Assembly (NCBI GenBank): GCA_030447865.1
Contig: JAUJOD010000003.1
Span: forward strand, 1 to 64,000
Length of the DNA stretch: 64,000 bases
Direction: 5' to 3'
From: Nocardioidaceae bacterium
Lineage (GTDB): Bacteria > Actinomycetota > Actinomycetes > Propionibacteriales > Nocardioidaceae
In this document: positions 42,431 through 47,267 of the stretch, one piece after another
Layout: each line of letters opens with the position of its first letter
Numbering within the stretch: position 1 is the stretch's first letter
Translations under genes and position numbers: made by a program
Notes under the pieces: model-generated
What the model saw: only the letters and a program-made list of their open reading frames with translations
Databases searched by the model: none
What the model was told of the DNA's origin: nothing

Positions 42431-43150
42431 TCACCGTGGACGCGCGAAGCCGGCGAGAGGTAGCGCGAGGGTGCGGTCGCAGTCGCCGGCCAGCGCCCGA
42501 CGTACCCCGTCGGGGAGCGGGGCGTCGCCGGCGAGGCCGAGCGTCGTACGCACCGCGAACCGGTGCCAAAGAGCCGGCTGGTCCAGGAGGGCATGACCGC
42601 CGTCGACCTGCTCGTAGCGAGCCACCTTCGCACCGGCCTGCCGCAGCCGCCGCGCGTATGACGCGCTGAGCGCTGGAGAGGTTGTCCGGTCGGCGGTGCC
42701 GTGGGCGAGGACAAAGCCCCCACCTGACAGTGGGGCGGGTAGGGGCTCTGCTTCCGGCAGCCAGGGGGCGAGCGCACAGACGCCGACGACCCGAGGGTGA
42801 CCCGCGACGGCGAAAGCGACCCGAGCTCCCATCGAGTGTCCGAGCAGCGCAATGGGGACGTTCGGGTGTGCTGCGGTGATCTGATCGAGCGCCCAACTGG
42901 CATCCTTGACCGGAGCGACGGTGCCATCGCCACCGCCGTTCCAGCCGCGGACCGCATAGCGCAGGTAGTACACGGCGCAATTCCGGGACAGGCGGCGCAG
43001 TCCGGCGTACATGTCGGCCATGCGCAAGTAGGACAGCTGCCACCTGCTGGTCGGCGACGTGTTGTGCTCCTGCCCGCCGTGCAGGACCAGAATCGCTGAT
43101 CCTGCCCGGCGGCCTCCGCCGCGCAGGACCGGACTCCGCAGTGTGCTCAC
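42431..43150 (-). CDS. alpha/beta hydrolase
   Basis: A 239-residue alpha/beta hydrolase. The oxyanion-loop region ILVLHGGQEHN, the nucleophile elbow GHSMGAR, the acid in AHGTADRTTSP and the histidine in VDGGHALLDQP form a complete triad. Substrate unknown (ester or acyl). GTG start at 43150 overlaps the stop of the upstream methyltransferase gene, so the two are translationally coupled. It is convergent with cdsA. Confidence 0.85.
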   Translation of the reverse strand: MSTLRSPVLRGGGRRAGSAILVLHGGQEHNTSPTSRWQLSYLRMADMYAGLRRLSRNCAVYYLRYAVRGWNGGGDGTVAPVKDASWALDQITAAHPNVPIALLGHSMGARVAFAVAGHPRVVGVCALAPWLPEAEPLPAPLSGGGFVLAHGTADRTTSPALSASYARRLRQAGAKVARYEQVDGGHALLDQPALWHRFAVRTTLGLAGDAPLPDGVRRALAGDCDRTLALPLAGFARPR

Positions 43151-43968
43151 GGCGTACGCTGCCGTACTGCCTCGTAGAGGATGACTGCTGCCGCCGCGGC
43201 GACGTTCAAGGAGTTGACGCGCCCGAACATCGGCACCGCGGCGGCAATGTCTGCCTCGCGGAGCCAGAACTCGTCGAGGCCGCTGTGTTCGGCACCCACG
43301 ACGACGGCGACCCGGCCCGACAGGTCCACGTCGGTGACCAGGGTCTGCGACTCGGGGCTCGCCGCCACGATCTTGATGTCGTGCTTGCGCAGCCAGTCCG
43401 CGACCGCCGGCGAGCTTGCAGCGGCGACCGGTACGGCGAAGATCGTGCCCTTGCTGGCCCGCACCACGTTGGGGTTGCCCCAGTCAGCGACGGGCGCGGC
43501 GGCGATGACGGCGTCGACGCCCGCCGCCTCTGCAGTCCGCAGCATCGCACCGAGGTTTCCCGGCTTCTCCACCGCCTCGCAGACAAGCAGCAGCGGATTG
43601 TCTGCCAACCGGAGCGCGTTGAGGGTCTGCACAGGCGTGGGTACGACGGCCAGCCAGCCGTCAGGGGACTCCCGAAGGGAGGCTTTGGCGAAGGCAGCCG
43701 TCCCGAGCTCGACGACCACGGTTCCCTGAGCAGCTAGCTCCTGCGCCAACCGAGCCCGGCCCGGGTCGTCGACCAGCGACGGACAGTGGAAGAGCGCGTG
43801 CAGCTGCACCCCCGCATCGAGCGCAAACCGCAGCTCGTCGTACCCCTCGACGATCATCAGGGCCTCGGCGTCACGGACGCGCCGCTTCCGCAGGCTCACC
43901 AGCCACTTGACCCGCTGGTTGCTCGGGCTCGTGATCACCTGGTGGGCGGCGCTCTCGTGCGTGCTCAT
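43147..43968 (-). CDS. SpoU-family (TrmH-type) RNA 2'-O-methyltransferase
   Basis: A 273-residue SPOUT methyltransferase. The N-terminal substrate-binding domain (SPSNQRVKWLVSLRKRRVRDAEALMIVEG) resembles the 23S rRNA TsnR/RlmB branch. The knot motifs are KPGNLGAMLRTAEAAGVDAVI, VVVGAEHSGLDEFWL and VPMFGRVNSLNVAAAAAVILYE. I chose the ATG at 43968; no strong Shine-Dalgarno is seen. Target site unknown. It is divergent from rlmN, with two R2 palindromes between them. Confidence 0.88.
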   Translation of the reverse strand: MSTHESAAHQVITSPSNQRVKWLVSLRKRRVRDAEALMIVEGYDELRFALDAGVQLHALFHCPSLVDDPGRARLAQELAAQGTVVVELGTAAFAKASLRESPDGWLAVVPTPVQTLNALRLADNPLLLVCEAVEKPGNLGAMLRTAEAAGVDAVIAAAPVADWGNPNVVRASKGTIFAVPVAAASSPAVADWLRKHDIKIVAASPESQTLVTDVDLSGRVAVVVGAEHSGLDEFWLREADIAAAVPMFGRVNSLNVAAAAAVILYEAVRQRTP

Positions 43969-43996
43969 CAGGGGGCCAACTATGTCGCAACCCCCG

Positions 43997-44044
43997 AAGG
44001 ATCCGACGGTCAGCACGCCATAACGAATCTGACGTCGGATCCTT
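43997..44044 (+). repeat. R2 palindromic repeat, copy 3
   Basis: AAGGATCCGACG (43997-44008) and CGTCGGATCCTT (44033-44044) are perfect 12-base arms, the longest of the family. The core (gtcagcacgccataacgaat) is a diverged version of copies 1 and 2 in the same orientation. It lies between divergent genes, so it is not a simple terminator. Confidence 0.9.
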
Positions 44045-44062
44045 TCCACGTGGTCGGCCGGC

Positions 44063-44108
44063 AAGATCCGACGTGGTGATCGCCATAGCGTGCTAGCCGT
44101 CGGATCTT
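44063..44108 (-). repeat. R2 palindromic repeat, copy 4 (inverted)
   Basis: AAGATCCGACG (44063-44073) and CGTCGGATCTT (44098-44108) are perfect 11-base arms. The core atcgccatagcgtgct is the exact reverse complement of 16 bases in copy 1, so this copy is inverted relative to the other three. It ends 45 bases before the rlmN start. Confidence 0.9.
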
Positions 44109-44153
44109 TGTGCTGGGGTGGGCGCAGACAAGGCGTGGGAGAATGGCTCAATC

Positions 44154-45284
44154 ATGTCCTCCGCATCCGCGCCCTTGTTGCCGCTCGTCTTCGACGAGCC
44201 GCGTCGAGCGAAGCGACCGCCACGGCACCTTGCCGACCTCACGCCCGACGAGCGCCGGGAGGCGGTGACGCAGGCCGGCCTACCGGGCTTTCGCGCGGCC
44301 CAGGTCTCTCACCACTACTTCTCTCGACTGGTCGACGATCCGGCACAGATGACCGACCTGCCAGTCGGCCTCCGCGCACCGCTGGCTGCTGCCTTGCTTC
44401 CGCGGCTGTTGACGCCGGTCCACACGCTGACGGCCGACGGCGGCACGACCCGCAAGACGCTGTGGCGACTGCACGACGGGGCACTCGTGGAGTCGGTACT
44501 GATGCGGTACCCCAACCGGGCAACGCTGTGTGTGTCGTCCCAAGCTGGCTGCGGCATGGCCTGCTCGTTTTGCGCCACGGGGCAGGCGGGTCTCCAGCGC
44601 AATATGAGCACCGGCGAGATCGTCGACCAGGTCGTCGCCGCAGCGCGCGCGCTGGCGGCGGGGGACGTGCCGGGCGGCCCTGCCCGGCTCTCGAACGTCG
44701 TCTTCATGGGTATGGGCGAGCCGTTGGCGAACTACGCCGCGGTGATCGGAGCGGTCCGTCGGATGATCGAGCCGCCACCAGCAGGTCTCGGTTTGTCCGC
44801 CCGCGCGATCACCGTCTCGACGGTCGGTCTCGTCCCCCGCATGCTGCAGTTGGCCGACGAGGGGATTCCCGTCACCTTGGCCCTGTCGCTGCACGCCCCC
44901 GACGACGAGCTCCGCAACGAGCTGGTGCCGGTCAACACCCGCTGGGGCGTCCGGCAGGCGGTGGAGGCGGCGTGGAACTACGCCCGCGTCACTAAGCGAC
45001 GCGTCTCGATCGAGTACGCGCTGATCAAGGACGTCAACGACCACGCCGAACGGGCTGACGCGCTCGGCGACCTCCTCACGTCGTACGGCGACTGGGGCTG
45101 GGTGCACGTCAACCTGATCCCCCTCAACCCCACACCGGGATCTCAGTGGACCGCGTCACGGGTTGAGGACGAGCGCGAGTTCGTGCGCCGGCTGGAGGCC
45201 AAGGGCGTTCCAACGACCGTGCGCGACACCCGAGGACGCGAGATCGACGGCGCCTGCGGCCAGCTCGCCGCCGCGACCAGCTGA
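44154..45284 (+). CDS. rlmN: dual-specificity 23S rRNA/tRNA adenine C2-methyltransferase
   Basis: A 376-residue radical-SAM RlmN that methylates A2503 of 23S rRNA and A37 of some tRNAs. The cluster motif is [12 protein letters not shown], with [29 protein letters not shown] and the C-terminal [16 protein letters not shown] containing the methyl-carrying cysteine. The ATG at 44154 is favoured; an in-frame GTG 12 codons upstream is possible. Followed by a convergent MerR pseudogene. Confidence 0.95.
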
Positions 45285-46229: not shown

Positions 46230-47057
46230 TCAGTACGCCTGGGCGATGAGTTCGGCGAACAGGTCGTCGGGATCGGCAGCGAAGCCCCGGGAGTTGAACC
46301 AGGAGCAGACGTTGCGGCAGTCGCGCGCCAAGAACTCCATGCCGTTGGGGTTACCGACGATGTCGACGACCTGAGGCAGGTCGATGATCACCACCCGGTC
46401 ACCGTCGACGAGGATGTTGTACGGCGACAGGTCGCCGTGAGCGATCCCGCGCCGAGCGAGCACCCCCATCGCGGCCGTCAGCTGGTCGAAGTAACCCTCG
46501 ACGAGATCCCGGCTGGGGCGAACCTGCGCAAGTCGTGGCGCAGCGACGCCGTCAGCCCCGATGAACTCCATCAGGATCTCGGTGCCGTCGATCTGCACCG
46601 GGTAGGAGACGGGGACGCCGGCGCTCCACAGCGACGACAACGCCGCGAACTCCGCCTGAGCCCACTGTCCGGCCGCCACGAGCCGGCCGAAAGCGGTGCC
46701 TTTGGCCATCGCGCGTGCGTCTCGGGTACGGCGGGTGCGTCGCCCCTCGACGTACCCGGTGTCGCGATGGAACTGCCGGTGCTCTGCGGATCGGTAGCGT
46801 TTGGCGGCGAGTATGCAAGCACGCTCTGAGTCGCCGGGCACGGCTCGTTCGACCAAGAAGACGTCGGCCTCCTTGCCGGTCTTCAGCACACCGAGCTCGG
46901 TGTCGACGGCGGCGTCGTCGGTGACGACCCAGCTGGGTCGGGGCTTCGGGCCGCGAGCCCCTTTCTCCACCGACGACCAGGTGGACCACCGTTGGTCGTC
47001 GGCAAGCTCGGCGACAGCGGAAAAGGAGAAGTCCGTGTCGGACAAGGGGGAATGCAT
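46230..47057 (-). CDS. RIO-type serine protein kinase
   Basis: A 275-residue RIO1-like kinase. GVLKTGKEADVFLVE holds the ATP-binding loop, LAAKRYRS the lysine, MEFIGADG the hinge, HGDLSPYNILV the catalytic loop and VIIDLPQVVDI the metal-binding aspartate. Bacterial RIO kinases phosphorylate themselves; their substrates are poorly known, and ribosome-related roles are inferred from eukaryotes. ATG at 47057. The leader contains an upstream ORF and a hairpin covering the Shine-Dalgarno (separate entries). Confidence 0.85.
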   Translation of the reverse strand: MHSPLSDTDFSFSAVAELADDQRWSTWSSVEKGARGPKPRPSWVVTDDAAVDTELGVLKTGKEADVFLVERAVPGDSERACILAAKRYRSAEHRQFHRDTGYVEGRRTRRTRDARAMAKGTAFGRLVAAGQWAQAEFAALSSLWSAGVPVSYPVQIDGTEILMEFIGADGVAAPRLAQVRPSRDLVEGYFDQLTAAMGVLARRGIAHGDLSPYNILVDGDRVVIIDLPQVVDIVGNPNGMEFLARDCRNVCSWFNSRGFAADPDDLFAELIAQAY

Positions 47058-47063
47058 GAGACT

Positions 47064-47093
47064 GAGTGCTCCTCAAGGGGGACGAGGGCACTC
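47064..47093 (-). promoter_or_regulatory. hairpin sequestering the RIO kinase ribosome binding site
   Basis: GAGTGC (47064-47069) pairs with GCACTC (47088-47093), and CCTC (47071-47074) with GAGG (47084-47087). On the transcribed minus strand the Shine-Dalgarno GAGGAG of the kinase (complement of 47069-47074) is inside this stem, 11 bases before the ATG. Translation may depend on opening it. Inference from sequence only. Confidence 0.45.
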
Positions 47094-47102
47094 AGGTGGC
47101 GA

Positions 47103-47162
47103 TCAGCTGAGCGACCTCGAAAACGAAGGGACCAAGAACGTCCCGGGGACACCGGTTGACAT
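47103..47162 (-). CDS. 19-codon upstream ORF (possible leader peptide)
   Basis: ATG at 47162 is preceded at six bases by AAAAGGAGG, the best Shine-Dalgarno in this neighbourhood. It encodes MSTGVPGTFLVPSFSRSLS and stops at 47103, ten bases before the hairpin that hides the kinase ribosome binding site. A ribosome terminating there could affect that hairpin. No run of a single amino acid suggests classical attenuation. It may instead be a gene remnant. Confidence 0.4.
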   Translation of the reverse strand: MSTGVPGTFLVPSFSRSLS

Positions 47163-47267
47163 CTCGCGCCTCCTTTTCGTGAGGAGCAGCCTGGCTGCTC
47201 GGATGCAGGTGCGGTGGGAATCGTCGCAGCACCGCCGCCGGATCGGCAACTGATTTGCGGCGCGCTG

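Follow-up and report, generated by a model that had tools for sequence, protein, structure and literature searches.

In ermC-type attenuators, a leader ORF is combined with alternative hairpins, one of which masks the Shine-Dalgarno (SD) sequence of the target gene, and the same elements occur before a RIO1-like kinase gene in the DNA analyzed here, a stretch of 64,000 nucleotides from a Nocardioidaceae bacterium (hereafter the window). Unlike the ermC type, the kinase leader shows no sign of a conserved stall peptide, the target is a kinase rather than an rRNA methyltransferase, and most relatives have a leader that overlaps the gene it precedes.

The toiL-topAI system of E. coli likewise has a short leader ORF and leader-region sequence that masks the target SD. 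Ribosomes held on that leader are proposed to expose the target SD, several ribosome-targeting drugs are sensed, and tetracycline and retapamulin are reported to hold ribosomes on the toiL start codon, releasing the topAI SD (PMC12121999). Sequence and host are unrelated to ours, and the target is a toxin-antitoxin system, whereas here a WhiB7-type promoter precedes a RIO kinase. The whiB7/wblC leader, as described in PMC10727445, has the same promoter type and a leader ORF; it carries a rho-independent terminator, whereas the kinase hairpin lacks a T run and masks the SD. In the window's own genome, whiB7 (locus L105, in C3, about 1030-1500) has a leader ORF MSTTQITLATTSSVRLRLPAFLVG... and a T-run hairpin before the gene, and its start context is near-identical to that of the kinase leader (GGAAGGAGGCGCAAACGATGTCCACT vs. 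AAAAGGAGGCGCGAGATGTCAACC). A member of the WblC regulon, are5sc of Streptomyces coelicolor, likewise has a leader ORF; in Streptomyces, lincosamides and pleuromutilins stall ribosomes where translation of this leader and of the tiaA leader begins (PMC12421871). These leaders, unlike the kinase leader, are very short (MLV; MVGDDDISG) and act by terminator/anti-terminator switching. Start-codon stalling on toiL and on are5sc and tiaA thus gives precedents for control by a ribosome held at the start of a leader.

Leader-ORF translational attenuation and the promoter are each of a known kind. Among the matches listed from PubMed Central (CC0, CC BY and CC BY-SA articles), no paper deals with WhiB7 control of a RIO kinase or with a leader before one, and, as far as those listed matches go, the target, the combination, and the occurrence of two architectures before one conserved gene are new. 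RIO is also absent from the main texts of the WhiB7/WblC regulon papers PMC7157823 and PMC10727445.

The kinase locus and the two forms of its leader

Read 5' to 3', the minus strand of the window carries an FAD-dependent oxidoreductase ORF (48776-47268; a match to Pfam DAO), the 19-codon leader ORF (47162-47103) and the RIO1-like kinase of 275 aa (47057-46230). RIO kinases act on the ribosome or on a translation factor in archaea and eukaryotes; we know of no settled role for those of bacteria. The protein scores 120.7 bits against Pfam RIO1 (PF01163), passing the gathering cut-off of 22, and contains LKTGKEADVF, HGDLSPYNIL and IIDLPQ, which we take to be the RIO1 nucleotide, catalytic and metal motifs. 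Its best matches by sequence among solved chains are RIO3 and Rio1 kinases, and its score of 167.3 bits against the NCBIfam model for PA4780-family RIO1-like kinases (NF041645) is below the curated cut-off of 350. The kinase was present in 120 of 197 sampled genomes of the family (118 after removal of two with weak matches, G074 and G111), 124 of 196 of the order, and 63 of 246 of the class, with 45 of the 63 class-level matches at E 1.5e-81 or better.

Additional features were observed on the other side of the kinase. A MerR-family ORF (Pfam; 46171-45143, minus strand) appears by eye to be out of frame past about two thirds of its length, and it runs antisense into an ORF on the plus strand (44118-45284); a frameshift appears likely. 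The ORF facing the kinase (43147-45284 region) is presumably rlmN, and it is followed in the window by another RNA-methyltransferase-like ORF (43147-44151). In L011 and L012, too, what by eye seems to be an rlmN end lies downstream of the kinase.

The leader ORF, MSTGVPGTFLVPSFSRSLS, runs on the minus strand from an ATG at 47162 to a TGA stop ending at 47103, and 45 nt separate the stop from the kinase start. Its SD, AAAAGGAGG (47177-47169, minus strand), is six bases 5' of the ATG. To follow the leader in relatives, we examined 177 loci, comprising 80 from a public genome collection and those from the genomes sampled, with duplicates between the collections (e.g., L002, L117); the genera given below, except Kribbella, were read from 38 of the 80 public-collection loci. 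A leader candidate with a score of at least 6 was found in 156 of the 177 loci (duplicates included) and a weaker one in 20. The rule gave none in the remaining locus, L027, where GAGAGGGGGGG and an ATG are visible by eye; L160, a 178th locus outside this count and on a contig as long as that of L027, is also without a candidate. The rule required an SD-like stretch and an ATG or GTG, and its score, slightly different between L001-L098 and L117-L196, rewards the N-terminal pattern, so that these features are partly built in; leader position, frame, length and folding are not. Genera with the leader include Nocardioides, Nonomuraea, Streptosporangium, Actinomadura, Micromonospora, Streptomyces, Pimelobacter and Kribbella, while Cellulosimicrobium, Oerskovia and Promicromonospora have weaker candidates only.

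Two forms of the leader were found. The separate form, to which the window belongs, has 19-21 codons in all 19 loci (11 distinct) and a stop 41-82 nt 5' of the kinase start. In the overlap form, the leader continues across the kinase SD, often TGGAGCACC, and across the kinase start, which is in the +1 frame in 135 of 135 loci and lies 55-70 nt past the leader start, with the leader stop 17-65 nt within the kinase gene; one long hairpin hides both the leader SD and the kinase SD. Two loci of one species (L019, L155) with low-scoring candidates in the +2 frame are outside the count of 135. The comparisons below use sets of distinct loci, 11 from the window's clade (set A), 66 of the overlap form (set B) and 23 of the Kribbella type (set C), which exclude leaders scoring below 6 (20 loci), three loci with an uncalled kinase start (L032, L038, L166) and sequences more than 93% identical.

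The leader peptide and promoter are near-invariant across distant genera in L128-L152 (Streptosporangiales, Actinomadura, Micromonospora rubida, a Mycobacteriaceae MAG and Kribbella), which suggests that constraint is strong or that promoter, leader and kinase were transferred together as a module. Four further loci (L163, L165, L186, L192; Cellulosimicrobium and a record named Sphaerisporangium) share another kind of 19-codon leader, MS[WR]T..., with a similar promoter box and an end 65-90 nt 5' of the kinase start.

Promoter type and association with whiB7

WblC/WhiB7 promoters have an AT-rich GAAAWY element 3 bp before a -35 element TKGMNN, a spacer of 16-19 and a -10 element TANNNT, according to PMC7157823, and a similar arrangement is given in PMC10727445. 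The minus strand of the window has AAAT (47256-47253), 3 bp, a -35 TTGCCG (47249-47244) and, after an 18-bp spacer, a putative -10 GACGAT (47225-47220), at whose place relatives show, e.g., CACCAT or CATCCT. This arrangement, AAAT-CAG-TTGCCG-18-GACGAT, meets the criteria for the promoter type (box 3 bp from the -35, spacer of 16-19, and A/T at -10 positions 2/6), while a plain sigma-70 consensus scan found no promoter at 47256-47220. From the putative -10 we predict a transcription start near 47212, for which there are no transcript data. The initial annotation had named transcription starting downstream of 47103 as an outcome that would refute a leader. Given the promoter-like site at 47256-47220 and a box at a similar distance in relatives, such a start is unlikely, though not excluded.

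Of 100 distinct loci, 80 have the box AA[AT]N3-4TTG[CT] at a distance of 55-120 nt from the leader, on its 5' side, compared with 0.9% of shuffles and none of 100 equal-size windows inside the kinase; 61 of the 80 boxes lie 84-89 nt before the leader, and that of the window at 94. It was missed in the other 20 loci, some of which have near variants. A similar box is present in 30 of 30 whiB7 upstream regions, for which about 590 nt were searched with the last base relaxed, compared with 65 nt for the kinase loci. Within the window's genome, AAAWNNGTTGC occurs at three sites vs. one in the reversed control, and the search for other WhiB7-type promoters there (3 vs. 1 and 10 vs. 7 in the control) gave too few for a regulon.

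This genome also encodes whiB7 (with the AT-hook RGRP, at L105). At a threshold of E 1e-25 or better, whiB7 is present in 114 of 118 kinase-bearing genomes of the family and 28 of the 79 others, so that the 197 genomes divide into 114 with both, four with the kinase only, 28 with whiB7 only and 51 with neither; three of the four kinase-only genomes are 77-90% complete. Fisher's test on this co-occurrence ignores phylogeny, and since 14 of the 20 listed whiB7-negative genomes fall in one genus (g19), its p-value overstates the association. Drugs acting on either ribosomal subunit induce whiB7 (PMC10727445); that WhiB7 binds before the kinase leader, and that transcription depends on it, are inferences.

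RNA structure over the kinase Shine-Dalgarno

The predicted fold of 47190-47030 in the window has an energy of -62.7 kcal/mol (z -2.99), equaled by one of 200 dinucleotide shuffles. Arm 2, CTGAGTGCCCTCG (47095-47083, minus strand, as for all arms), pairs across a 7-base loop with arm 3, TGAGGAGCACTCAG (47075-47062), in the form TGAGG-A-GCACTCAG, which contains the kinase SD GGAG 11 nt before the ATG at 47057. The end of the leader ORF forms arm 1, CGAGGTCGCTCAG (47119-47107), a competitor for arm 2 by duplex energy. The 1:2 duplex (-21.3 kcal/mol) and the 2:3 hairpin between the stop and the kinase (-21.1 kcal/mol) are mutually exclusive. Arm 0, GCTGCTCCTC (47190-47181), can pair with the kinase SD GAGGAGCA in the minimum free energy (MFE) fold of 47190-47030; this is a minor pairing in longer folds of the window and the main pairing in the overlap form of relatives.

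Within the window's clade, the SD hairpin is maintained by compensatory change. The 2:3 stem is rebuilt with other bases, as GTGAGAC..GTTTCAC in L004 and GGTGAGG..CCTCACC in L005, and arms 2 and 3 of the same species pair at a mean of -19.4 kcal/mol vs. -14.1 kcal/mol when arms are swapped between species, a difference reached by none of 2000 permutations (n = 7; 1134 of 2000 for the control pairing). The swap test used seven of the 11 distinct loci, leaving out L011, L122, L156 and L179. As to the competing duplex, CGAGG of arm 1 is present in six of seven distinct clade members (absent from L009), and the swap test of arm 1 against arm 2 was not significant (225 of 2000, n = 7). In the nearest relative, L002, one pair of the 2:3 stem is broken, and the 1:2 duplex forms in its place in the predicted fold.

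Similarly, masking of the kinase SD is supported in the overlap form (n = 66), where none of 2000 permutations was as good as the natural pairing of arm 0, just 5' of the leader SD, with the kinase SD, or of the leader SD with the segment 5' of the kinase SD (controls, 1899 and 231 of 2000). In the 23 loci of the Kribbella type, 7 of 2000 permutations matched the natural pairing of arm 0 with the kinase SD (controls, 139 and 1940), and the leader SD with the pre-SD segment was not significant (344 of 2000). None of these permutation tests takes account of phylogeny. The kinase SD has arm 0 as its partner in the MFE folds of 58 of 66 overlap leaders, vs. a mean of 45.2 (range 36-50) with a foreign arm 0, and in 23 of 23 Kribbella-type leaders, where the swap makes no difference because the arms hardly vary. 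RNAalifold predicted no structure from all 66 overlap leaders, a blank that we put down to misaligned arms; a subset of 16 gave 18 pairs, four with two-sided changes, and 22 of the 23 Kribbella-type loci (L006 excluded) gave 28 pairs, none with changes on both sides. With the failure of RNAalifold on the full overlap set noted, our criterion for a selected RNA structure masking the kinase SD is met.

The leader ORF and the SD-masking hairpin are thereby confirmed as real and widely conserved in actinobacteria. The ORF with its strong SD can be read directly where the initial annotation placed it, similar SDs occur in relatives (though the search rule required one), and the conservation of ORF, stop position and masking structure that it had set as a check was borne out, the last with compensatory change. 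Its hairpin over the kinase SD also stands, with a different geometry: the stem has 13 pairs and one bulge and begins seven bases past the stop, rather than 10 bp at ten bases. It had missed the WhiB7-type promoter, the overlapping leader of most relatives, and the absence of peptide-level selection.

Two candidate identities for the structured region were rejected. A transcription terminator is rejected as the function of the kinase hairpin, which lacks a T run after it; the sole stems returned by a terminator scan are one of 5 bp in the leader (47144-47128) and one in the kinase gene (47043-47031), so the criterion of an intrinsic terminator between leader and kinase gene, as in a whiB7-type attenuator, is not met. 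A general element common to many genes is unsupported: an RNA model of the structured element, built from 16 overlap leaders, gave 15 matches in 61 genomes, 14 of them directly before the kinase (the remaining one in G049 at E 0.004). This model fails to match the window's own leader, and the window has no match to a known RNA family in Rfam.

Ribosome position and readings of the leader

Many species share the N-terminal leader pattern M[ST]xTVxG, and the second half of the leader is not conserved as a peptide in the Nocardioides type. Among codons with a single difference, the leader frame shows no surplus of synonymous changes, which make up 0.30 vs. 0.48 and 0.26 in the other frames of the overlap form (55 of the 66 set B loci) and 0.16 vs. 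0.30 and 0.40 in the Kribbella type (20 of the 23 set C loci). A sensed peptide is therefore unsupported, and we rejected peptide sensing as the main constraint on the leader. Judging from these sequence comparisons, we see the leader as constrained at the RNA level, with the site of the ribosome rather than the peptide likely to be what matters.

To relate ribosome position to the kinase SD, we computed the cost of freeing the SD (opening cost) with a ribosome placed along the leader, using for the window's clade the seven swap-test loci and L002. The window's opening cost is 8.9 kcal/mol without a ribosome; with one at codons 5, 10, 15 and 17 it is 10.0, 8.3, 15.1 and 17.5, respectively, and at the last codon 14.2. 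Across the eight clade members, the mean rises from 7.8 at codon 10 to 10.9 at codon 17, with an increase in six (not L003 or L005); the mean is 8.5 without a ribosome and 6.2 with the leader replaced, and codon 17 brings no rise over the ribosome-free state in three (L003, L004, L005). By this measure, an early ribosome is no better than none in this clade. For the overlap form, the opening cost is 8.6 without a ribosome, and 5.5, 8.6, 5.9 and 4.4 with one at the leader start, codon 4, codon 10 and codon 12, respectively; the replaced-leader control gives 5.5. The corresponding values for the Kribbella type are 10.5 without a ribosome, then 4.7, 10.3, 5.4 and 7.1, and 5.3 for the control. In terms of opening cost only, the separate and the overlapping forms both agree with easier kinase translation when a ribosome is held at or near the start than when ribosomes are further on.

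The equilibrium probability that the SD is unpaired, which is almost unchanged by an early ribosome, disagrees with this measure; the opening cost was applied after that probability had shown almost nothing, and it alone shows an effect. An alternative pairing tied to ribosome position is thus favored by the near-equal energies of 1:2 and 2:3 and by the shift in opening cost, and is not favored by the unpaired probability or by the swap test of arms 1 and 2 (225 of 2000). The proposal of the initial annotation that ribosomes on the leader could switch kinase translation is supported, in that the ORF end is the competitor arm in the window's clade and the opening cost shifts in six of eight members; the switching itself is inferred.

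We read the region as a translational attenuator of the erm/toiL kind on a WhiB7/WblC-type gene, with the kinase on when ribosomes stall early, and assign this reading a probability of about 0.58. WhiB7, induced upon ribosome inhibition, would drive transcription from about 47212, yielding an mRNA whose kinase SD is predicted to be masked by the hairpin. A ribosome at the last leader codons would cover arm 1 and so let arm 2 bind arm 3 firmly, with the kinase off; one that an antibiotic or some other obstacle stops at the start codon or soon after it would leave arm 1 free to take arm 2, and the kinase SD may then be easier to open. In the Nocardioides, Streptomyces and Kribbella relatives, arm 0 would mask the kinase SD until displaced by a ribosome that is held on the leader start. 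Kinase synthesis would probably occur under ribosome blockade. Sequence or computation shows the ORF, the SDs, the promoter box and the alternative arms, and also conservation, compensatory change and the shift in opening cost; transcription, translation of the leader, stalling by drugs or stress, and the direction of the switch are inferred.

Coupling of the opposite sense, in which ribosomes translating the leader unwind the hairpin and turn the kinase on, and the kinase is off without leader translation, is a rather unlikely alternative overall that nevertheless stays open, above all for the overlap form. There the leader extends across the SD and start of the kinase to a stop 17-65 nt into the gene, so that elongating ribosomes could melt the masking helix, and the opening cost is lowered at codons 10 (5.9 and 5.4) and 12 (4.4 and 7.1) in the overlap form and Kribbella type; for the window's clade, a ribosome that has reached the leader stop occludes the beginning of arm 2, which weakens 2:3. 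However, elongating ribosomes in the overlap form cover the kinase SD too, six of eight clade members have a higher opening cost at codon 17 than at codon 10, and plain coupling gives no role to a competitor arm within the ORF.

The leader ORF might instead be untranslated or incidental within a conserved structured RNA sensed by a protein or small molecule, given conservation at the nucleotide rather than the peptide level and a leader start codon that many folds place inside a hairpin. We regard this as improbable, since the separate form keeps 19-21 codons in 19 of 19 loci, the kinase start is in the +1 frame, 55-70 nt on, in every one of the 135 overlapping loci, the masking structure varies between clades, and the window has no Rfam match; the SD and ATG or GTG, being required by the search rule, were not counted against it. 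A small functional protein made under the WhiB7-type promoter, with the hairpin as ordinary intergenic structure, could account for the strong SD and the recurrent M[ST]xTVxG, and is very doubtful in view of the missing synonymous excess, the second half unconserved as a peptide in the Nocardioides type, and a leader frame that overlaps the kinase in most loci. Open frames are common in GC-rich DNA, and yet the coincidence of a random ORF and a random hairpin is hardly credible beside conservation across many genera, compensatory pairing and fixed spacing.

Under the attenuator reading, a role for the kinase in ribosome stress remains an inference. That the actinobacterial RIO1-like kinase is a dedicated effector for blocked ribosomes, doubly controlled by WhiB7 at transcription and by the leader at translation, and acts on the ribosome or a translation factor, is a tentative proposal to which we give somewhat less than even odds. 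The leader wiring has been rebuilt, as a separate or an overlapping ORF, while target and promoter are unchanged. The combination of a conserved antibiotic-response-type promoter with leader folding that depends on ribosome position points to where and when this kinase works.
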